Of a stretch of 29,120 nt of DNA, positions 2,960-19,046 are shown piece after piece. Each line of letters begins with the position of its first letter. Position 1 is the first letter of the stretch. Origin of the DNA: a virus; the IMG/VR virus record IMGVR_UViG_3300034104_003861, positions 1 through 29,120 of that record. One strand, written 5' to 3'. The notes under the pieces were generated by a model. That model searched no databases. It was not told where the DNA came from and saw nothing but the letters and a program-made list of their open reading frames with translations. The position numbers and the translations under genes were made by a program.

Positions 2960-5636
2960 ATATTCTGACTTCTATTGGTGAGTTTAATAATTGTGAATCA
3001 GTGTGTGCATGATTCTGTGTTTTGGTTGTGTGCACCACAATGTCACCATCGCTGTTGACGTAGGCAGTAGCAATGTAGTCATGTTCTACATTGCCGATTA
3101 TGACGAAAGTGTTTAGAGCATCGAATGGGCTGATAGGAGTGCCGAGATATTGACCAACAGCTGTGCGAGTCCAGGTGATTATTCCGATGTTCTCAGCCAA
3201 TACAGAAGCAGTCGGTGCAGCAGTACCGCTCTGCGTTAGTAACGCCACATAAGTCTGCGCCACAGCAGCCGCTCCATTGATTCGAGGCGTGATGATTCCA
3301 TCCTCCTGGAGTGTTCTGTTGTCACCGATGACCACGCCACGCAGACCATCACCGATGTTGTTGCCAGTGCCACGCACGATGACATCGATGCCAGATAGGT
3401 TGACATTCGCCTCTGTTGATCGTGTTTCAAGATTTGACTCACGAGATGCGGCAGTGATGGGTGGTGATACTGGTGTGCCTGGATTCGTTACGAATGGAGC
3501 GAGGTCAATCTCGGTGTCGATGCTGATGAGTTCCACCTTGGTTGGCACCTCTGCATTGGCATCATAGTCGATGACCTTGTTGATGTTCCACCATGAGTTG
3601 TCAATGCGAATCTTGTCATTGAGCTTGAGCGTCTGAATGTCAGCCTCAGTCAAATGGAAGTAAGCCACCAACATCTTGCCGACATTTATCTGGTTGACTG
3701 TTCTGCGCCAGTACAGATTGTACAGGTTGTTCGCAGTCAGTGTGCTCGGTGAATAGTAGTAGTAATCGCACGTTGCGAAGTTTATGTCGAATGTAGGTGT
3801 GAGCGCATCATCGAAGTGACCAAGCATCGGATAGGTAGTGATGCCGAGCTCACCCGTTGTGCCGTACTCAATGAGGTCCCATGAGCCGCACGTCTGCTCG
3901 CCACCATCATACAAGATGCGGATGTTGGTCTTTGGTGCTTCACCATTCAGCGATGGCACATAGGCATCGAATGTCGTGGCTACCACTGGAGTCGGTGAGA
4001 AGATGAGCTCCTTGGTATCGGTATCTCTGACGTACTCATTCTCAAAGGTGTACTCGAGCTGACCATAAATCTCGTCAGTCATCTGGGTGTATACTTCATT
4101 CGGTGAGTCCTTGTCTGCCTTGTATGTGAGCTTGAGTTTCTTGGCAGTGAGGTCAGGGAGGAAGATTAGATTCTGCTCTCTGTCCTTCATTAGTTTCTGC
4201 GACCAATCCTTCTCTGCTCCGCTGTCATAATATTCGTCACGATGGCGAAGGATGAGCTTGTTGGGTTGGTCTGTGTCCGTATCAGCGTAGAGGTTGTACA
4301 TCTGGAAGATTGACTTCACATAGTCGCTCTGCTTGATTTTGAGCGGCACATATTGGTTGATGTCCAGGATGCCACCAATCACTTGGATGTTGGCTGTCGG
4401 AGTAATCTTGATACGCACCGAGTTGACTATCAGCTCCACGTTGACGGGCAACGCACCAGTGAACTGGCAGTATCCGTTCTGCCATCCAACCACAACATTG
4501 GCTACTTGAGCAGCGGTCAACGTTGCTGGGACAGTTCCATCGCTCATGAGAGCAACGCTACCTGTGACAATTCCGCTGGTCAACGCAGTGACTCCAACCG
4601 GAATGATACTGCCCTGGTTGATGACTTGCTCTGCTGATAGATTCGAGTACTGACCATTGTAGCCGAGTATACTGAATCCGATGACTGGAGTTGCCTTGAA
4701 TGGTGACAATGAGTTGAGGACAACCGTTGCATTGGTATTGTCGATTTGGAATTCATAGTCAATCTGATACTCCATGATGTATGCCTCACCAGCCGCTGCG
4801 TTGGTTGAGAATGGAACGGTGAACTCACCAGTTGTTGGATTGAATGAGCCTTGCACGTCAGTGATTTCAGTCCATCCAGTAGCATCCTCTCGGTAGTTGT
4901 TGGCTGATGTCGAAGCAACTGATGCAGTGAATGGAGTGGTGTTCTCTTCATCCACCAAATAATCAGCGGTGTCGAATGTGTTGCTGTCCCCATTGTAAGG
5001 AATCAGCAGCTTGTCGAAGCGAGCAGCAGCCAGGTCACTCCACTCGTATTGAAAGCCAGCAGTGGCAAAGATGCGGTCAAGATATGTCTTGGCGTAGATG
5101 GCTGGCTTCATCTGACGCACGTTGTAGATGTTGTCGGTATCGTATGGCAGCACATACTTGAAGCCGTCAGTGATCGTGTTGTCAAATGTTGCCACGATGT
5201 CAGCCGCAGTGAAGGTATGGTTGAGGTCAGTGAAGTCGAGGTCAGTCAGCTCCTTGTTGGCGATGGCTGTAAAGAACTCCACTCTCGTATCCTTGATGAG
5301 GACCTCATACTCGACAGCTTGCTCGTATGCATCTGTCTGCTGATTCTTGTTGACCGATAGCAACTGAAGCAGCGCATCCTCCATGATTGGCACGTTGTTC
5401 TGAATCACGCTGCACTTTGTGAGTGCATTGATGTCGAAGGTACCAGCGGAGATGTTGACATCATAGTAGTGATTGAGCAGCTCGTGGTTGTTCTTGCTAC
5501 CCACCAAGGTGATGGTCTTGGAGAATGCTCCGCTGCGCTTGGTGAGGTCACGGATATCTCCGACAGCAAAGTTCAAAGGGAATACTGTCCCCTCCTTCAC
5601 ATCAAGGAATCCATTCTCAAGTTGTATTCTAACCAT
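2952..5636 (-). CDS. Large phage tail/baseplate structural protein
   Basis: An 894-residue protein, the largest in the genome. The N-terminus (MVRIQLENGFLDVKEG, then RDLTKRSGAFSKTITLVGSK) is typical of large tail proteins in Bacteroidota phages, where the first domain resembles a tail-hub or baseplate beta domain. The middle is beta-rich with many NAT/TAS-type threonine segments. The last 150 residues contain repeated loop-strand units (GTGNNIGDGLRGVVIGDN) and end in a short beta segment with a histidine motif (NHAHTDSQLL). It overlaps its neighbours by 8 bases on both sides and lies between a second tail protein and the tape measure. A role as distal-tail or tail-hub protein is inferred from position; the exact function is unknown. 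Confidence 0.65.
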   Translation of the reverse strand: MVRIQLENGFLDVKEGTVFPLNFAVGDIRDLTKRSGAFSKTITLVGSKNNHELLNHYYDVNISAGTFDINALTKCSVIQNNVPIMEDALLQLLSVNKNQQTDAYEQAVEYEVLIKDTRVEFFTAIANKELTDLDFTDLNHTFTAADIVATFDNTITDGFKYVLPYDTDNIYNVRQMKPAIYAKTYLDRIFATAGFQYEWSDLAAARFDKLLIPYNGDSNTFDTADYLVDEENTTPFTASVASTSANNYREDATGWTEITDVQGSFNPTTGEFTVPFSTNAAAGEAYIMEYQIDYEFQIDNTNATVVLNSLSPFKATPVIGFSILGYNGQYSNLSAEQVINQGSIIPVGVTALTSGIVTGSVALMSDGTVPATLTAAQVANVVVGWQNGYCQFTGALPVNVELIVNSVRIKITPTANIQVIGGILDINQYVPLKIKQSDYVKSIFQMYNLYADTDTDQPNKLILRHRDEYYDSGAEKDWSQKLMKDREQNLIFLPDLTAKKLKLTYKADKDSPNEVYTQMTDEIYGQLEYTFENEYVRDTDTKELIFSPTPVVATTFDAYVPSLNGEAPKTNIRILYDGGEQTCGSWDLIEYGTTGELGITTYPMLGHFDDALTPTFDINFATCDYYYYSPSTLTANNLYNLYWRRTVNQINVGKMLVAYFHLTEADIQTLKLNDKIRIDNSWWNINKVIDYDANAEVPTKVELISIDTEIDLAPFVTNPGTPVSPPITAASRESNLETRSTEANVNLSGIDVIVRGTGNNIGDGLRGVVIGDNRTLQEDGIITPRINGAAAVAQTYVALLTQSGTAAPTASVLAENIGIITWTRTAVGQYLGTPISPFDALNTFVIIGNVEHDYIATAYVNSDGDIVVHTTKTQNHAHTDSQLLNSPIEVRIYG

Positions 5637-8909: not shown

Positions 8910-10070
8910 TTAGAAGGCGAAGTATGAGTCATCGGTGTAGTACTCCTGGCGGATGTGCGTGGCAGCGTAGCGGATGGCATCCATGGCATCATCGAACAGC
9001 TTCACGGGCTCATCGGTTATGATGTCACCGACCTTTTTCCATTTGTAGTTCTCATACTCTTTCTTGATGCGTGGGTCATCCTCACAGAACACCCCGAAGG
9101 TCTTGATGTTGTCGATGCCCTTCTTGACCACCTTGTTGGCGTTCTGCACGTCATAGCCAGCATTGTTCATCTCGGCAATGATTTCAGGGCGTGCGTAGTC
9201 AGCCACGATGGTGACGTGCTTCTCGATGCCGAGGTTGCCCATCTTGTCGATGAGGTTGGTGGTGGTGAGGTAGCTCTCGTATATCACCGGCTCGATGTAG
9301 ATGTCATTGTCGCACCAGTAGACTCGCACCAGTGCAGTCGGGTGATTGTACCCGAAGTCGAGCCCATACACAAAGTTGACGAACCGAGCCGGGCGATGCT
9401 TCACGAATGTCCAGTTGGAGTAGATGTTGCTCTTCGAGATGGCTTTCTCTCCGAGCGCATAGATTTGATACAAGGCTTCATCGGTGCGCTTGAGGTCCTC
9501 AATCTGTCGCTTGATGCTGTCGGGCAGAAATGGGTTGTCTTTGTAGGTTGACTTGATGATGACGCTCTCCTCCATCGGCAGCTCATAGAGCCAGGATGAT
9601 GACTCACTCGGGTTGTAGTCGAAGATGAGCTTTTGCTCGGTCCTCATGTTGAGCTGCTGAAAATCTTCGAACCATAGCTCATTGGCTTCATTGCACCACC
9701 CAAGGTCACGCTTACGACCTCGAATCTTCTGCTCATCATCCACGCTGAAGAACTCCACGATGGACCCATTGCTGAATGTGTAGATGTGCTCTGACTTGTT
9801 GTGGCTCTGCACGTCATATATCTCCATTGCCTTCATGATTTCAAAGAAGTCACGCATCACCGTTGCCCTCAGAGCTGGGAAGGTCTTGCGTACGATGCTG
9901 ACCACCTTGCCAGGATGTTGGAGGCAGTACACCACGATCATTTGGCACAGCGAGTAGGTCTTGCTCGAGCGGCTTCCACCCTCATTAATGATGAAGCGCA
10001 CACCAGGGTCAGCCAGTGCTGTGTAGTTCTTTTCGAAGATGACAGTGCTGTCGATTGAGATTTCAGCCAT
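8910..10070 (-). CDS. terL: Terminase large subunit
   Basis: A 386-residue DNA-packaging motor: an ATPase that pumps DNA into the prohead plus a nuclease that cuts it. The Walker A-type loop GGSRSSKT is at residues 31-38 and the Walker B region LGWCNEANEL at 123-132 with catalytic Glu128. The C-terminal RNase H-like nuclease shows GLDFGYNHPTA with Asp238, VADYARPE with Asp291, and FDDAMDAIRYA with Asp361/Asp364. This is the Terminase_3/PBSX-type arrangement, at a normal if slightly short length. It lies 77 bases downstream of the small subunit, with a -7-like promoter element between them at 10131-10138. It is about 13 kb from the portal gene, an unusual separation. Confidence 0.95.
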   Translation of the reverse strand: MAEISIDSTVIFEKNYTALADPGVRFIINEGGSRSSKTYSLCQMIVVYCLQHPGKVVSIVRKTFPALRATVMRDFFEIMKAMEIYDVQSHNKSEHIYTFSNGSIVEFFSVDDEQKIRGRKRDLGWCNEANELWFEDFQQLNMRTEQKLIFDYNPSESSSWLYELPMEESVIIKSTYKDNPFLPDSIKRQIEDLKRTDEALYQIYALGEKAISKSNIYSNWTFVKHRPARFVNFVYGLDFGYNHPTALVRVYWCDNDIYIEPVIYESYLTTTNLIDKMGNLGIEKHVTIVADYARPEIIAEMNNAGYDVQNANKVVKKGIDNIKTFGVFCEDDPRIKKEYENYKWKKVGDIITDEPVKLFDDAMDAIRYAATHIRQEYYTDDSYFAF

Positions 10071-13060: not shown

Positions 13061-13431
13061 TAATATATCCACTTGAAAAATCTTCGAATGAGACCGAGCT
13101 CTTTTGAAGGTGAAGGTTTTGAGACAACCACTTTATGGTTGTTTTTGATATCATTATTAGCTCTCAATTCTTTATTTATATGAGACACATATGCTCTAAA
13201 TTCACGAAGCATTTTGACATCTGGTTGATGAGATTCATTCCAAATATATAGTCCTTTTTTATCTTTATACACAATTCCTTTCTTTTTCAAGAATGTCTCC
13301 CATTGACTATTGACTCTATATTTATCAACATATGGTCTAATCACAGACACATTATTGAATTTCATTTCAAATTTCAATTCGTTAAGGAATGAGATGTACT
13401 TTTTTTCTGTTATTTTTTTCTTTTGATTCAT
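13060..13431 (-). CDS. Hypothetical basic protein, 123 aa
   Basis: A 123-residue lysine-rich protein (MNQKKKITEKKYISFLNELK). The middle reads like a winged-helix-like or small alpha/beta domain (SVIRPYVDKYRVNSQWETFL, then KKGIVYKDKKGLYIWNES), and the end has aromatic and basic residues (LIRRFFKWIY). Strong positive charge suggests nucleic-acid binding. It is more AT-rich than neighbouring genes, for example in its K/N codons, which may mark later acquisition. It lies 16 bases after a small helix-turn-helix gene in the early block. No family is recognised. Confidence 0.55.
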   Translation of the reverse strand: MNQKKKITEKKYISFLNELKFEMKFNNVSVIRPYVDKYRVNSQWETFLKKKGIVYKDKKGLYIWNESHQPDVKMLREFRAYVSHINKELRANNDIKNNHKVVVSKPSPSKELGLIRRFFKWIY

Positions 13432-15591: not shown

Positions 15592-15827
15592 TTTTTGTAT
15601 GTTTCATTATAGTAATTAATTGGATGCAATCCATCTTGCATATTGATTCCATATGCAGAACCATATACATAGGCATTGCATATCTGATCCTTTTCCATTT
15701 CTTTGGATTGGTCAAGAACATTAGATAATTGATTAAGCATTTCATTCATTGATATATTTCCTTTTGCTTTTTCTATTTCTAATCGCATTGCTTGTTCTGC
15801 ATACCATTCGAGTGCTGTCTTTTTCAT
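15588..15827 (-). CDS. Small conserved phage protein, 79 aa
   Basis: A 79-residue helical protein beginning MKKTALEWYAEQAMRLEIEK and containing KEMEKDQICNAYVYGSAYGI. Short proteins with the K-T-A-x-E-W start and a M-E-K-x-Q-I...Y-x-x-G centre are very common in phage genomes of Bacteroidota, without assigned function. It overlaps the helicase stop and the nuclease start by four bases each, so it is tightly coupled to the replication genes. Confidence 0.6.
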   Translation of the reverse strand: MKKTALEWYAEQAMRLEIEKAKGNISMNEMLNQLSNVLDQSKEMEKDQICNAYVYGSAYGINMQDGLHPINYYNETYKK

Positions 15828-18223
15828 TGCTTCGCTTTTTCGTTAAGTTCATCCCAAATATCATCAGATTCTGGAGTCGGCTTGGGATTTCCCGAATCGA
15901 GAATGAAGTATCTTCCATTGTGATTGCGACCTTTGGTGATGTTGTAGCCTTTATAGTCAGCATACGATTGCACCCATTTGAGGAATCTGCGTGGCTCGAG
16001 CTCCTTGAATGATGTGAATTCTGATGTGAACTCTTGAATCTTGGTGCCGTTGTAGTGGTACACATCGAGAGCGAGGTTGCCTTCCTCCACCCAATCAAAG
16101 AAATCCTTGCACGTTGCCTGGATGAGTCGCTTGGCATCTGCGTTGATGCTGATGGCTTTCATCAATCCATTGGTGAGGTACTTCTGAAGGTTCTTGACCA
16201 TGTAGTTGTCGAACTTCAACCAATCCTCATCGGTCCAGGAGTCGAATAAGAGCCGACCATACTCATCGAGTGGGCTGCGCTTTGAATGAAAGTACTGATA
16301 GAACTCCAGCTCATGCCTTCTGCGATCATGAGAAGAGCCTGCACCACTGATGACATAGTTGGTGGTGATGACAATCTTTGGCGAGCGATTGAATGGAATG
16401 AATATCTCGTCTTTATTTTTGCGGTTGACGGTGATTCCCTCGGTGATGAGGCTGAATAGCTGCTCGAAGTCGAATGCTTTGCGCACATCATCGAATGCCA
16501 GAATCTGCGTGTCCAGGTTTACTCGCTGATAAACGAAATCAGACTTGGATGGATTGAAGCTCTTGCCATCTATCTTGACGACTCTGCGAAGATTGCCGAG
16601 TGCTGCCAGCATGAGTGACTTTCCAGACCCTCCATTCGGGTTGTCATCGATTTCTTGGTCATTGAAGATGATTGCTTTCTGGTCAGTCTTATCCTTGAAG
16701 GTGTGCATGAGGTAGCCGAGCGTGGTCTCAAGCGCATTGATTCTGCCTCTATCATCTGCTGACACCTTGCTGACGAAATCTTGAAAGTCATTGGTGCAGT
16801 CATCCAGCAGCGTGAAATCTCGCTCGATGATTTGATTCTCCCAGATGTAGCCATCCACATCGATGTAGCTCTTTAGCTCGACTTTATTCTTGGATATCTT
16901 TGCCACACCATTCTTGAATGGGATGTATGACGCATCCTTGCTATCCTGGAGCATCATGATATTGATGCTGTCAATCATATTGATAAAGTTCTCATTGAAT
17001 AGAAACGCATTCCTGGAGCAGTAGTTCCAGACATCCATCTCACCCTTGCTTTGCAGATAGTTCAGCACAAAGTCCTTGATTTGTTCAGCCGATGATATCT
17101 TAACCTTATTCTCCTTGACTCTTACAAAGGTTGGCTTCTCTGCATTCTCTGGATAGTACTTATTGAATCCGTTCTTGACCAGAAATTCAGAGTAGTTGGA
17201 TGGCTTGATTGTGATTGTTCCCTTCTCATTGACAGACCAGAATATATCATCGCCAGTTTGAATCTCTTTCTTGATGTCCTCAATGACATCCTCTCGCACA
17301 TTCAGTTGTTTCTTGATATCATCGTCAGCGATGCCGCTCTTGAGCTTTTGACGTACCCTTTGGAATGTATCCTTGTCCTCGAAGTATTTAATGCCGTAGG
17401 AAGCCTTTTTGTAAGCAGAGCGAATGGTTGTTACCATCTCTTGCTCGCTGAAGCTGGTTCCTTGAGCATACTTTGTCCAAATGTACTGTTCTGCCGTATC
17501 TTTCCCAATGCCATACTCGCAGAGCACAGCTGCCAATTTGAACACAAATTCATTACGGCTGCCCTCCTCGAATTGACATCCATGGTCGAATCGTTCAATC
17601 AAGCTGATGATTTTGTCCTCATCGGATAGGATGCAGATGGGAGTGCGCTCGGTGTAGCTGAAGCCTTGGTCTTGCTCGATGCCTTCAAATACCTGGCAGA
17701 ACTCATTGAAGTAGATGTCAGGGTCATAGGACTCGAAGCATACCCGACTCACGTTGCTGTTCTTTGTGTCGAAGTATTCGCTCTGGAAGTACTTGCCGAA
17801 TGCAGTGAATCTGCGCTTGTGCTCGACCTTGTCTGATTTTGGTATTCGGATGACAGCTTTCAAGCCATTTCCAGATGGCGATGTGAATACCATCATCACA
17901 TGAGGGTCAGCAATCAGCCGTTTGCGTTCCTCCATCATTTTCTTTTTGGTTGGATATTGGTCGAAGTCCAGGATGCACAGACCAGAATGCTCGACCAGGC
18001 TGCTGTCATTTCGCTCGGTGAAGGTACCATTGAACATGATGGCATTGAGTGATGACTTCAGGCGGTCATGCTCGGGGTCAGCCTTCTCCAGTGATCGTAT
18101 GGTTGTGACCTTTTTAATGAGCTCGGGGTTGCCGTGCTTTATGCGGTTACACACCTCGTGAATGGACAATTCAAAAGGCGTTTCTTTGATGTTAAATAGT
18201 GATTTAAAGATTGAAACTTTCAT
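15824..18223 (-). CDS. Primase-helicase fusion (BT4734-like N-terminus, SF3/D5 helicase)
   Basis: A 799-residue replication protein. The N-terminus carries a BT4734/VirE_N-like primase-type domain: LCILDFDQYPTKKKM near 80, then TSPSGNGLKAVIRIPKS near 112 and NVSRVCFESYDPDIYFN. The C-terminal half is a superfamily 3 (D5/P4-type) helicase: Walker A NPNGGSGKSLM near 530, Walker B ILAFDD near 573, and sensor motif KIVITTNY near 618. Together they would prime and unwind DNA for phage replication. The ATG at 18223 is chosen over an upstream frame extension to 18310 because a promoter-like element and iterons occupy the upstream bases. It overlaps the downstream gene by four bases. Confidence 0.85.
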   Translation of the reverse strand: MKVSIFKSLFNIKETPFELSIHEVCNRIKHGNPELIKKVTTIRSLEKADPEHDRLKSSLNAIMFNGTFTERNDSSLVEHSGLCILDFDQYPTKKKMMEERKRLIADPHVMMVFTSPSGNGLKAVIRIPKSDKVEHKRRFTAFGKYFQSEYFDTKNSNVSRVCFESYDPDIYFNEFCQVFEGIEQDQGFSYTERTPICILSDEDKIISLIERFDHGCQFEEGSRNEFVFKLAAVLCEYGIGKDTAEQYIWTKYAQGTSFSEQEMVTTIRSAYKKASYGIKYFEDKDTFQRVRQKLKSGIADDDIKKQLNVREDVIEDIKKEIQTGDDIFWSVNEKGTITIKPSNYSEFLVKNGFNKYYPENAEKPTFVRVKENKVKISSAEQIKDFVLNYLQSKGEMDVWNYCSRNAFLFNENFINMIDSINIMMLQDSKDASYIPFKNGVAKISKNKVELKSYIDVDGYIWENQIIERDFTLLDDCTNDFQDFVSKVSADDRGRINALETTLGYLMHTFKDKTDQKAIIFNDQEIDDNPNGGSGKSLMLAALGNLRRVVKIDGKSFNPSKSDFVYQRVNLDTQILAFDDVRKAFDFEQLFSLITEGITVNRKNKDEIFIPFNRSPKIVITTNYVISGAGSSHDRRRHELEFYQYFHSKRSPLDEYGRLLFDSWTDEDWLKFDNYMVKNLQKYLTNGLMKAISINADAKRLIQATCKDFFDWVEEGNLALDVYHYNGTKIQEFTSEFTSFKELEPRRFLKWVQSYADYKGYNITKGRNHNGRYFILDSGNPKPTPESDDIWDELNEKAKQ

Positions 18224-18245: not shown

Positions 18246-18253
18246 TAAATATA
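18246..18253 (-). promoter_or_regulatory. Early promoter -7 element before the primase-helicase
   Basis: Minus-strand TATATTTA preceded by GCG, 22 bases before the primase ATG. It is the same GCGTATATT core as before the ERF gene and the 61-residue gene at 20216. No clear TTTG is found at the expected -33 spacing; the CGTGAC iterons occupy that region. Confidence 0.5.
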
Positions 18254-18257
18254 CGCA

Positions 18258-18448
18258 TTTCGTGACAATAAATGGGTGTTTCGTGACGATGCGTGACGGT
18301 AAATATGCAAATCTTGAGGGTTAAAACCTTGGTATTGTGCGACTTAACGATTTTCCGTGACGATGACGCTCTCAAAAATTTTTTGCTCTTGATGTGTTTG
18401 CCATCACTGTAGTAATCGGTACAATAGAGCAATCGTCATTCCGTCACG
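18258..18448. repeat. CGTGAC iteron cluster, candidate replication origin
   Basis: Five copies of the hexamer CGTGAC lie in 191 bases: plus-strand copies at 18261, 18282, 18292 and 18356, and an inverted copy at 18443-18448. Two share TTTCGTGAC, and two read CGTGACGATG. Start-to-start distances of 21, 10 and 64 bases are close to whole helical turns. The cluster lies between a DnaA-domain-IV-like gene and the primase-helicase, overlaps the region upstream of its -7 element, and the interval 18224-18435 has no convincing gene. It could be an origin or a repressor operator. Confidence 0.6.
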
Positions 18449-18852
18449 CTTGTGAACTCACCATACACCCCTCTCTTGATGTCAGTTTGTATCTTTTTTA
18501 GCTCCCAATATGCGCTGCATTGCATCACATCATGGATGAGATTTCTTGTGATTGGGTAGTTGAGTGCTGTGTATTTCTCAAATTTCTGGCGTAGGTCATC
18601 AGTCATCTTGAGGAAGAGTCTGTCTTTTTTCAACCATTCAGCTTGTTGCGCTCCATACAACACAGTGCAATGCTTGAGACCGAATAGATCGCCAATCTCT
18701 TGTAGCGTTAGCTTATGCTTTCTCAAATAGTGCATGAGGTAGTATTTCTGATATACTTTGTATCTCATGCGGTTGTTGGCTCCATGGCGATACGCCAGGT
18801 CTCTTGCCTCGATTTCTTGCTTGACTTCGTCAATTAGGTCTTGTATTGTCAT
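18436..18852 (-). CDS. DnaA domain IV-like replication initiator candidate
   Basis: A 138-residue protein. The centre (LRKHKLTLQEIGDLFGLKHC, then TVLYGAQQAEWL, about residues 43-73) resembles the DNA-binding signature of DnaA domain IV, which in the bacterial initiator reads ...IG-x-x-F-G-x-R-D-H-T-T-V-x-x-A. The flanks are helical and charged; no ATPase domain is present. Because the next feature downstream is an iteron cluster and then the primase-helicase, this protein is a candidate initiator that binds those repeats, or a regulator of the same promoter. It overlaps the upstream 65-residue gene by four bases. The domain match is by eye. Confidence 0.65.
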   Translation of the reverse strand: MTIQDLIDEVKQEIEARDLAYRHGANNRMRYKVYQKYYLMHYLRKHKLTLQEIGDLFGLKHCTVLYGAQQAEWLKKDRLFLKMTDDLRQKFEKYTALNYPITRNLIHDVMQCSAYWELKKIQTDIKRGVYGEFTSVTE

Positions 18853-19046
18853 TTCAAATAGTATTTCTTGTGGTTGTCTTTGATTAGTTGGTAGCCGAGT
18901 TGCTCATACATCTTGAGGTATCTGTAAACTGAACGCTCACTGATTCCAAGATATCTGACCATCGCTTGCACTGGTCTTGGCTTTTGCTTGAGGAATTCCA
19001 TCAGCTTGATGACTCGCATGATTCGATGCTGATTCATATTAGCCAA
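18849..19046 (-). CDS. Small winged-helix/HTH protein, 65 aa
   Basis: A 65-residue protein that is almost entirely one helix-turn-helix: RIMRVIKLMEFLKQKPRPVQ, AMVRYLGISERSVYRYLKMY, EQLGYQLIKDNHKKYYLK. The middle block fits HTH_11/DeoR-type domains (first helix, turn at G-I-S, recognition helix ERSVYRYL), and the end has the wing strands. It would be a transcriptional regulator of the phage, or help the initiator. It overlaps a wHTH-like gene upstream by 13 bases and the DnaA-like gene downstream by four. Confidence 0.7.
   Translation of the reverse strand: MANMNQHRIMRVIKLMEFLKQKPRPVQAMVRYLGISERSVYRYLKMYEQLGYQLIKDNHKKYYLK

Follow-up and report, generated by a model that had tools for sequence, protein, structure and literature searches.

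The alpha protein of phage P4 has a winged helix that binds the repeats of its origin (PMC4234260, in its available parts). In SaPI Rep and SCCmec Cch2, iterons are bound by the C-terminal domain of the protein, and the origin is downstream of the gene (PMC7581432, available parts). A third system belongs to the PLE satellites of Vibrio cholerae: the DNA-binding domain of RepA covaries with the ori iterons, there is exchange of modules, and selection for change is suggested to come from an origin-directed nuclease (as given in the available parts of PMC8263062).

The DNA analysed here, referred to as the window, is a whole virus record of 29,120 bases from a tailed phage with a terminase, an ERF-type annealing protein, an exonuclease and an SSB-like protein. 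A minus-strand gene (15824–18223) encodes a primase-helicase of 799 aa, and upstream of it lies an array of short repeats. A modest balance of probability favours the view that this array is both a replication origin and an operator, bound by the C-terminal winged helix of the primase-helicase. As in iteron origins, several copies of a short repeat are confined to one region beside the primase-helicase gene, and we infer that the primase-helicase is the initiator.

The primase-helicase and the described initiators

The primase-helicase contains a BT4734-like_N domain, a PriCT_1-like segment (20.5 bits; cut-off 21.1) and the Walker A motif GGSGKS, which we take to place it in the SF3-type helicase class. 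Going by BT4734-like_N, PriCT_1 and an invariant GGSGK, primase and SF3-type helicase are thus joined in one protein. The proposed reader of the iterons is a C-terminal winged-helix domain (∼residues 703–778; 15890–16117, minus strand), identified from an AlphaFold model and from covariation. The model of residues 655–799 is a winged helix with mean pLDDT 80 and pTM 0.56. It aligns with the P4 origin-binding domain, 1ka8, with Z 6.0 and rmsd 2.5 over 70 aligned residues at 17% identity, and 1ka8 is rank 8 among many winged-helix matches. Foldseek with the C-terminal model gave nothing under E 0.001, the C-terminal profile found nothing up to E 5 among PDB chain sequences, and profile comparison with P4 alpha, including hhalign, was not significant.

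Like P4 alpha, the window protein is a single polypeptide with primase and SF3-type helicase and a predicted C-terminal winged helix; DUF5906 is matched by P4 alpha and by the relative L224, above cut-off in the latter, but not by the window protein. The P4 primase, however, is of the Zn-ribbon/Toprim kind, whereas only BT4734-like_N and PriCT_1 were found in the primase part of the window protein and the relatives tested, and the Pox_D5 C-terminus (PF03288) of P4 was found in neither the window protein nor four relatives. Because Toprim/Zn-ribbon primase and Pox_D5 were not found, the protein is not classed as a homologue of P4 alpha. The type-1 repeats of P4 ori and crr resemble those of the window in being octamers in both orientations with neighbours often 9–11 bp apart (P4 annotation), but crr adjoins the 3′ end of alpha with ori elsewhere, while the window array is 5′ of the primase gene. 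SaPI Rep and Cch2 read iterons with the C-terminal domain of a helicase, as is proposed here; the likeness is drawn from their description, and their downstream origin is a difference. The PLE system shares initiator–iteron covariation and module exchange with the present one. Its RepA differs in being RepA_N-type, with helicase and primase activity not predicted (PMC7145576, available parts), and in having its specificity domain at the N-terminus.

The array, its conservation and its surroundings

Five CGTGAC copies had been reported in 191 bases, and all five were found in the places given. Four are on the plus strand, at 18261–18266 (minus strand ATTGTCACGAAA; matrix score 14.2), 18282–18287 (minus strand ATCGTCACGAAA, identical to the consensus; 18.0), 18292–18297 (10 bp from the previous copy; 16.5) and 18356–18361 (minus strand ATCGTCACGGAA; 17.2), and the start-to-start spacings of 21, 10 and 64 originally listed are correct for them. 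The fifth copy, 87 bp beyond the fourth, is inverted (18443–18448, minus strand; 12.6) and forms part of the last codons (GTG ACG GAA TGA) of a DnaA-like gene, with a degenerate copy, CGTCA, 8 bp away at 18434–18438. The full repeat, read on the minus strand, is ATCGTCACGAA, and the array contains both orientations. The position first described, with the DnaA-like gene on one side and the primase-helicase on the other, therefore holds for four copies, the fifth being inside the DnaA-like ORF (18436–18852). The suggested helical phasing is only partly borne out, as spacings in relatives are 8, 10, 11 and 12 bp.

Could the array arise by chance clustering or from coding-sequence bias? The window contains 20 copies of CGTGAC against 10.8 expected; every one of the 15 non-array copies is on the minus strand, the carrier of most genes, as such a bias would have it. 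Five copies per 191 bp were reached in 0/1000 first-order Markov simulations and four copies in one, figures to be read with the post hoc choice of the hexamer in mind. Somewhere in the window, two hexamers attain this density of five per 191 bp, compared with a simulated mean of 0.68 (n = 50). Against chance stands the conservation of the array. A 12-column matrix was built from 69 sites in 11 relatives, with the window left out of training, and its four top-scoring sites in the window are the array itself (18279, 18353, 18289 and 18258); a non-array site at 4233 scores above the fifth copy (18440), which is sixth. The array is accepted as real because it is conserved among relatives, whose matrix finds it first, and the probability of chance or coding bias is practically negligible.

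The relatives came from a scan of viral contigs with the primase, which gave 347 matching stretches, the best 80 of which were fetched. Six of these 80 loci were excluded since the match begins inside the primase, and 65 of the remaining 74 have at least 260 bp upstream. An array of four or more GTCAC cores precedes the primase gene in 51 of the 65, as in the window, and in most of them the copies agree in position and orientation. Of the remaining 14, nine were read; in these an insertion precedes the primase, and the array, partly degenerate, is beyond it where the DNA extends that far. The expected conservation of hexamer spacing thus holds for most relatives but not for a group at 82–83% primase identity, in which the array is rearranged, with different spacings and one extra inverted copy. 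Among 56 sequences, the window included, 50 have a DnaA-like gene whose third-last and second-last sense codons are GTG ACG, and the DnaA-like proteins in these sequences are of several dissimilar types. Since GTGACG is retained though the proteins differ, it is the DNA site that is conserved rather than the protein. In L070 and L073, whose DnaA-like proteins differ, the shared DNA starts inside the inverted iteron copy.

A separate search of viral contigs for the array pattern gave 68 stretches, 56 with a primase match. The 12 without were set aside; their GC content is 53–68% and, among those listed, several have the repeat in coding genes. Tandem CGTCACGAA-like repeats were seen inside putative replication-protein genes in phages that are richer in GC and apparently unrelated (L121:1739–1777 and L149:1673–1691). 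L100, L101 and MW202828 have relatives of the DnaA-like protein or primase, and the repeat finder detected no CGTCAC array near those genes.

Several relatives have a NUMOD4-HNH endonuclease gene between the array and the primase (e.g. L037:4597–4995 and L041:4597–4995), with Pfam matches in both of the two inserts tested. Its place beside the array brings to mind the origin-directed nuclease of ICP1 (available parts of PMC8263062).

A leader of ∼100 nt was seen upstream of the primase in L016, L025, L037, L041, L069, L071, L075 and others, and also in L170, L172, L224 and L229. Presumably it starts after a promoter of the TAnnTTTG type. Its 5′ segment, mostly a hairpin loop, pairs into a terminator-like stem followed by T's, making a pseudoknot, and the arms covary (CCTTCGAC, GGTCTCAC, GCTCTCACA, GGTTCGAC, CTCTCGAC, GTGGAAG and TGCCAAAGAC, each with its complement). 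No leader of that type was seen upstream of the window primase. Rfam gave no match at the gathering score for leader RNAs from nine loci, and in five loci a single RNAI match below it.

The first iteron copy adjoins a promoter-like TATATTTA (18246–18253, minus strand), which recurs in identical or similar form in the relatives listed (the 82% group has TACATTAG) and which we liken to the Bacteroidetes −7 box TAnnTTTG. Going by its sequence, it is the probable promoter of the primase gene. Because the array overlaps this promoter-like region, it would also be an operator of the primase-helicase gene. Directly after the inverted iteron is an element, CTCTATTGTACCG (18417–18429, minus strand), whose counterpart in relatives (L067, L070 and L074) is CTCTTATTATACCG and which is retained by most loci of the window family that were read.

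The copies that flank or overlap TATATTTA, together with a small HTH gene nearby (18849–19046), would also suit a purely transcriptional operator for another regulator of phage or host, with no part in replication. We regard such an operator as unlikely. In many of the relatives listed, other genes stand in place of the small HTH gene, and both the copies in two orientations up to 225 bp upstream and the tracking of the primase-helicase by the repeat word, described below, suit an initiator better.

An A/T-rich stretch within the array (18371–18390), chosen by eye, is a candidate unwinding element. The best 50-bp window around the array has 82% A+T, more than 99.8% of all windows of the genome, a comparison with the genome at large and not with other intergenic DNA. 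The GC-skew switch predicted at 18.2–18.5 kb is not seen; in none of six genomes does cumulative skew reach an extreme at the array, and in four of the six its minimum is ∼15–16 kb away.

Five related contigs of ∼29–30 kb begin at differing points of one map, and both ends of the window match overlapping bases in each of them (126 in G002). As related contigs span the window ends, the record is approximately a full, circularly permuted genome. Circular permutation is what headful packaging or circles would give, and would allow the array to be a site for packaging, partition or recombination, beside the primase gene by happenstance. This is very unlikely, given that the large terminase gene is 8 kb off (8910–10070) and that the repeat word covaries with a replication gene.

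Which protein follows the repeat word

The neighbouring gene (18436–18852, minus strand) encodes a stand-alone protein of 138 aa, described as DnaA-domain-IV-like from its predicted fold and, from its natural swapping, as a modular neighbour. Its predicted structure matches the DnaA–DNA complexes 3pvp (Z 9.7) and 1j1v (Z 9.5) over 85 aligned residues, the best structure other than DnaA being 1vz0 (Z 7.6), and Foldseek puts DnaA at ranks 1–3 (probability 0.97–0.98, E 0.25–0.36). The structural model thus supports a DnaA-domain-IV fold. The Pfam model Bac_DnaA_C gives the window protein 20.7 bits against a curated cut-off of 31.5; of 13 records from relatives, 10 have a DnaA_C match and 4 have one above cut-off, and of 43 records, 30 and 11 do. 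No match at E ≤ 0.1 was found in 13 of the 43 records, which may be fragments or hold members that the model misses; they include G042 and G047, whose loci (L224 and L229) carry arrays. Unlike DnaA itself, the 138-aa ORF is too short for the AAA+ part.

Such a neighbour is an attractive reader of the array, and the original prediction had it working in that way: the DnaA-domain-IV-like protein would bind the iterons and recruit the helicase. Its fold and the leading positions of the DnaA–DNA complexes among the matches fit this role, as do its location upstream of the array in most loci of the window family and the DnaA_C matches in the relatives. Several repeat words end in CACATT, which we take to recall the CACA half of the DnaA box. 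The recognition segment nevertheless changes (KHCTV, DHSTV, RDHAT, HHALV, AHCTV) while the word of the window family is constant, the records without a DnaA_C match include array-bearing phages, and there is no TTWTNCACA box near the array, the single one being at 13265.

Covariation bears on this more directly. It was examined in 23 phages with an assigned word and a DnaA-like protein, L229 and L236 being analysed apart. Words were assigned by eye; the mixed array of L188 was coded GGGGCAGATT in this set and GGGGCACATT in a comparison of nine phages. Within the set, different words stand beside DnaA-like proteins that are 95–99% identical in five pairs, approximately four events because L186 and L188 are closely related, and the same word accompanies DnaA-like proteins only 22–37% identical in 24 pairs, an N-terminal extension lowering the identities of some of these ORFs (L184). 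No pair has C-termini of the primase that are 90% identical and words that differ at two or more positions. Mantel correlations with iteron distance are 0.70 for the C-terminus of the primase, 0.77 for the rest of the primase and 0.33 for the DnaA-like protein (each p 0.002), the pairs including relatives and hence being non-independent. The last value might seem to favour the DnaA-like protein as reader before the primase is accounted for; given the rest of the primase, it falls to 0.07 (p 0.20), and the protein, unlike DnaA, no longer follows the repeats. Reading of the iterons by the DnaA-like protein is thus quite unlikely: the word is unchanged across swaps of the protein, and the protein across changes of the word. 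The same natural swaps led us to reject the idea that the array marks the DnaA-like gene. Perhaps the protein contacts host factors or serves its own regulation.

The boundaries of exchange give the same picture. Alignment of four pairs gives 92–97% identity for the DnaA-like genes and 70–75% for the array regions; by eye, identity runs through a terminator-like run and stops at the first iteron, so that the shared DNA of the DnaA-like gene ends at the edge of the array. From the swap pairs and this break, the DnaA-like gene is seen as an exchangeable cassette, and the array and the primase-helicase as a module. Breakpoints at the edge of the array are as compatible with a linked module as with a functional pair, and, as the array adjoins the primase, linkage alone could yield covariation.

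Within the primase-helicase, the nine-phage comparison shows the C-terminal stretch to diverge most with the word (0.52 for phages of different word classes, 0.74 and 0.88 for those of the same class). The partial Mantel test gives 0.13 (p 0.046) for the C-terminus given the rest and 0.48 (p 0.002) for the rest given the C-terminus, and does not single out the C-terminus. The two primases of L229 and L236 bear on the winged helix, though the pair is not a clean case: they differ at five of 799 residues, all within 702–794 (T702K, S735I, N759I, F791V and V794E), their C-termini remaining 95% identical, and N759 falls in the recognition helix of the winged-helix model. The array of L229 consists of CAGTACGAATC copies and that of L236 of two CGCAACACATT copies and one AAGTACACATC. 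The array region, within ∼600 bp, is not aligned by blastn, whereas the flanks are 98.5% and 96.6% identical, so the array has changed as a segment. No DnaA-like protein was detected in either phage. The recognition helix LEPRRFLKWV is constant in the eight members of the window family listed, and so is their word. Some changes of the word nonetheless come with no change, or hardly any, in the protein: L165 and L166 have identical C-termini, yet one base differs in three copies, and L206 and L181 have largely the same recognition helix while the right half of the word differs. L242 has S instead of I at the position of N759, together with CACATT.

The mechanism that we favour is modelled on P4 alpha, SaPI Rep and Cch2. 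The array would be the iteron part of the origin of the phage. The primase-helicase would attach to the iterons by its C-terminal winged helix and assemble there, the neighbouring A/T-rich DNA would be opened by the assembled protein, and the primase-helicase would then load its SF3 helicase and prime synthesis. Bound at the copies around TATATTTA, it would also limit its own transcription. It is from sequence and analogy that we infer physical binding, origin firing and autorepression. The early description of the locus as an origin or autoregulated operator remains its best reading, the array being a conserved cis-element beside a protein with a predicted DnaA-domain-IV fold and a primase-helicase.

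Distant relatives and the meaning of the array

Arrays extend well beyond the window family. In L133, whose primase is 37% identical, tandem copies of GCGTCACGAA are upstream of the primase and a DnaA_C match is downstream of it. A scan with the L133 primase gave at least 80 further loci, and in many of them arrays with other words were found upstream of the primase: AGGTACACATT, AGGTACTTATC, AGGTACAAATA, CGGGGCAGATT, CGGGGCACATT and CAGTACACATT, and also CAGTACGAATC, GCGGCACGAA, ATTCCACATT, CGGCACATTG and CGCAACACATT. The largest distant clade has a regular layout, with direct copies at about −320/−310, an inverted copy at about −220 and copies spaced by 12 bp from about −175 to −150. Scoring covered 76 wider loci, namely 69 of the L133-scan loci, L298–L303 and L102; 11 L133-scan loci with little upstream DNA or an incomplete match were omitted. 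With 25 shuffles each, the score of the best word was reached by none in 51 of the 76 loci, by one to three in 14 and by more in 11, in which shuffle scoring did not detect an array; in L213, L227 and L102 the best-scoring word is not the iteron. Six loci on cellular contigs (L298–L303; 38–56% identity), several labelled Bacteroidota, were among those scored. L298 and L300–L303 exceed all shuffles with further words, and the Pedobacter locus L299 does not. In the MAG-borne L298 (1169–1633), the 3′ end of the DnaA-like gene holds several copies of GTGACAAC/ATGACAAC, the word of that array. Judged by these upstream regions, distant phages keep an array, and the repeat word is clade-specific.

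Among the papers listed in our searches, which largely leave out subscription journals, none was found on iterons at this primase family, nor on phages of this kind with a stand-alone DnaA-domain-IV protein. Covariation of the DNA-binding domain of an initiator with its origin is already known from PLE RepA (PMC8263062, available parts). As far as these searches show, what is new is the setting, the range of words within one family and the uncoupled DnaA-domain-IV cassette.

More speculatively, the family may consist of self-addressed replicons, in which each clade has its own word, a switch of word takes a few changes in the C-terminal winged helix and matching ones in the copies, and exchangeable DnaA-like adaptors read nothing in the array; we think this possible but rather doubtful. 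Nucleases or satellites that take advantage of the array may drive this switching, by analogy with the ICP1 origin-directed nuclease. If the array is indeed an origin read by the primase-helicase, there would be a testable origin for a richly represented group of phages from the environment (347 matching stretches, with relatives in Bacteroidota-labelled genomes), and the attractive idea of the DnaA-like neighbour as initiator would be overturned. The family would also offer a ready set of initiator–iteron pairs, including two primases five residues apart, from which the way a winged-helix initiator changes its DNA target could be worked out.
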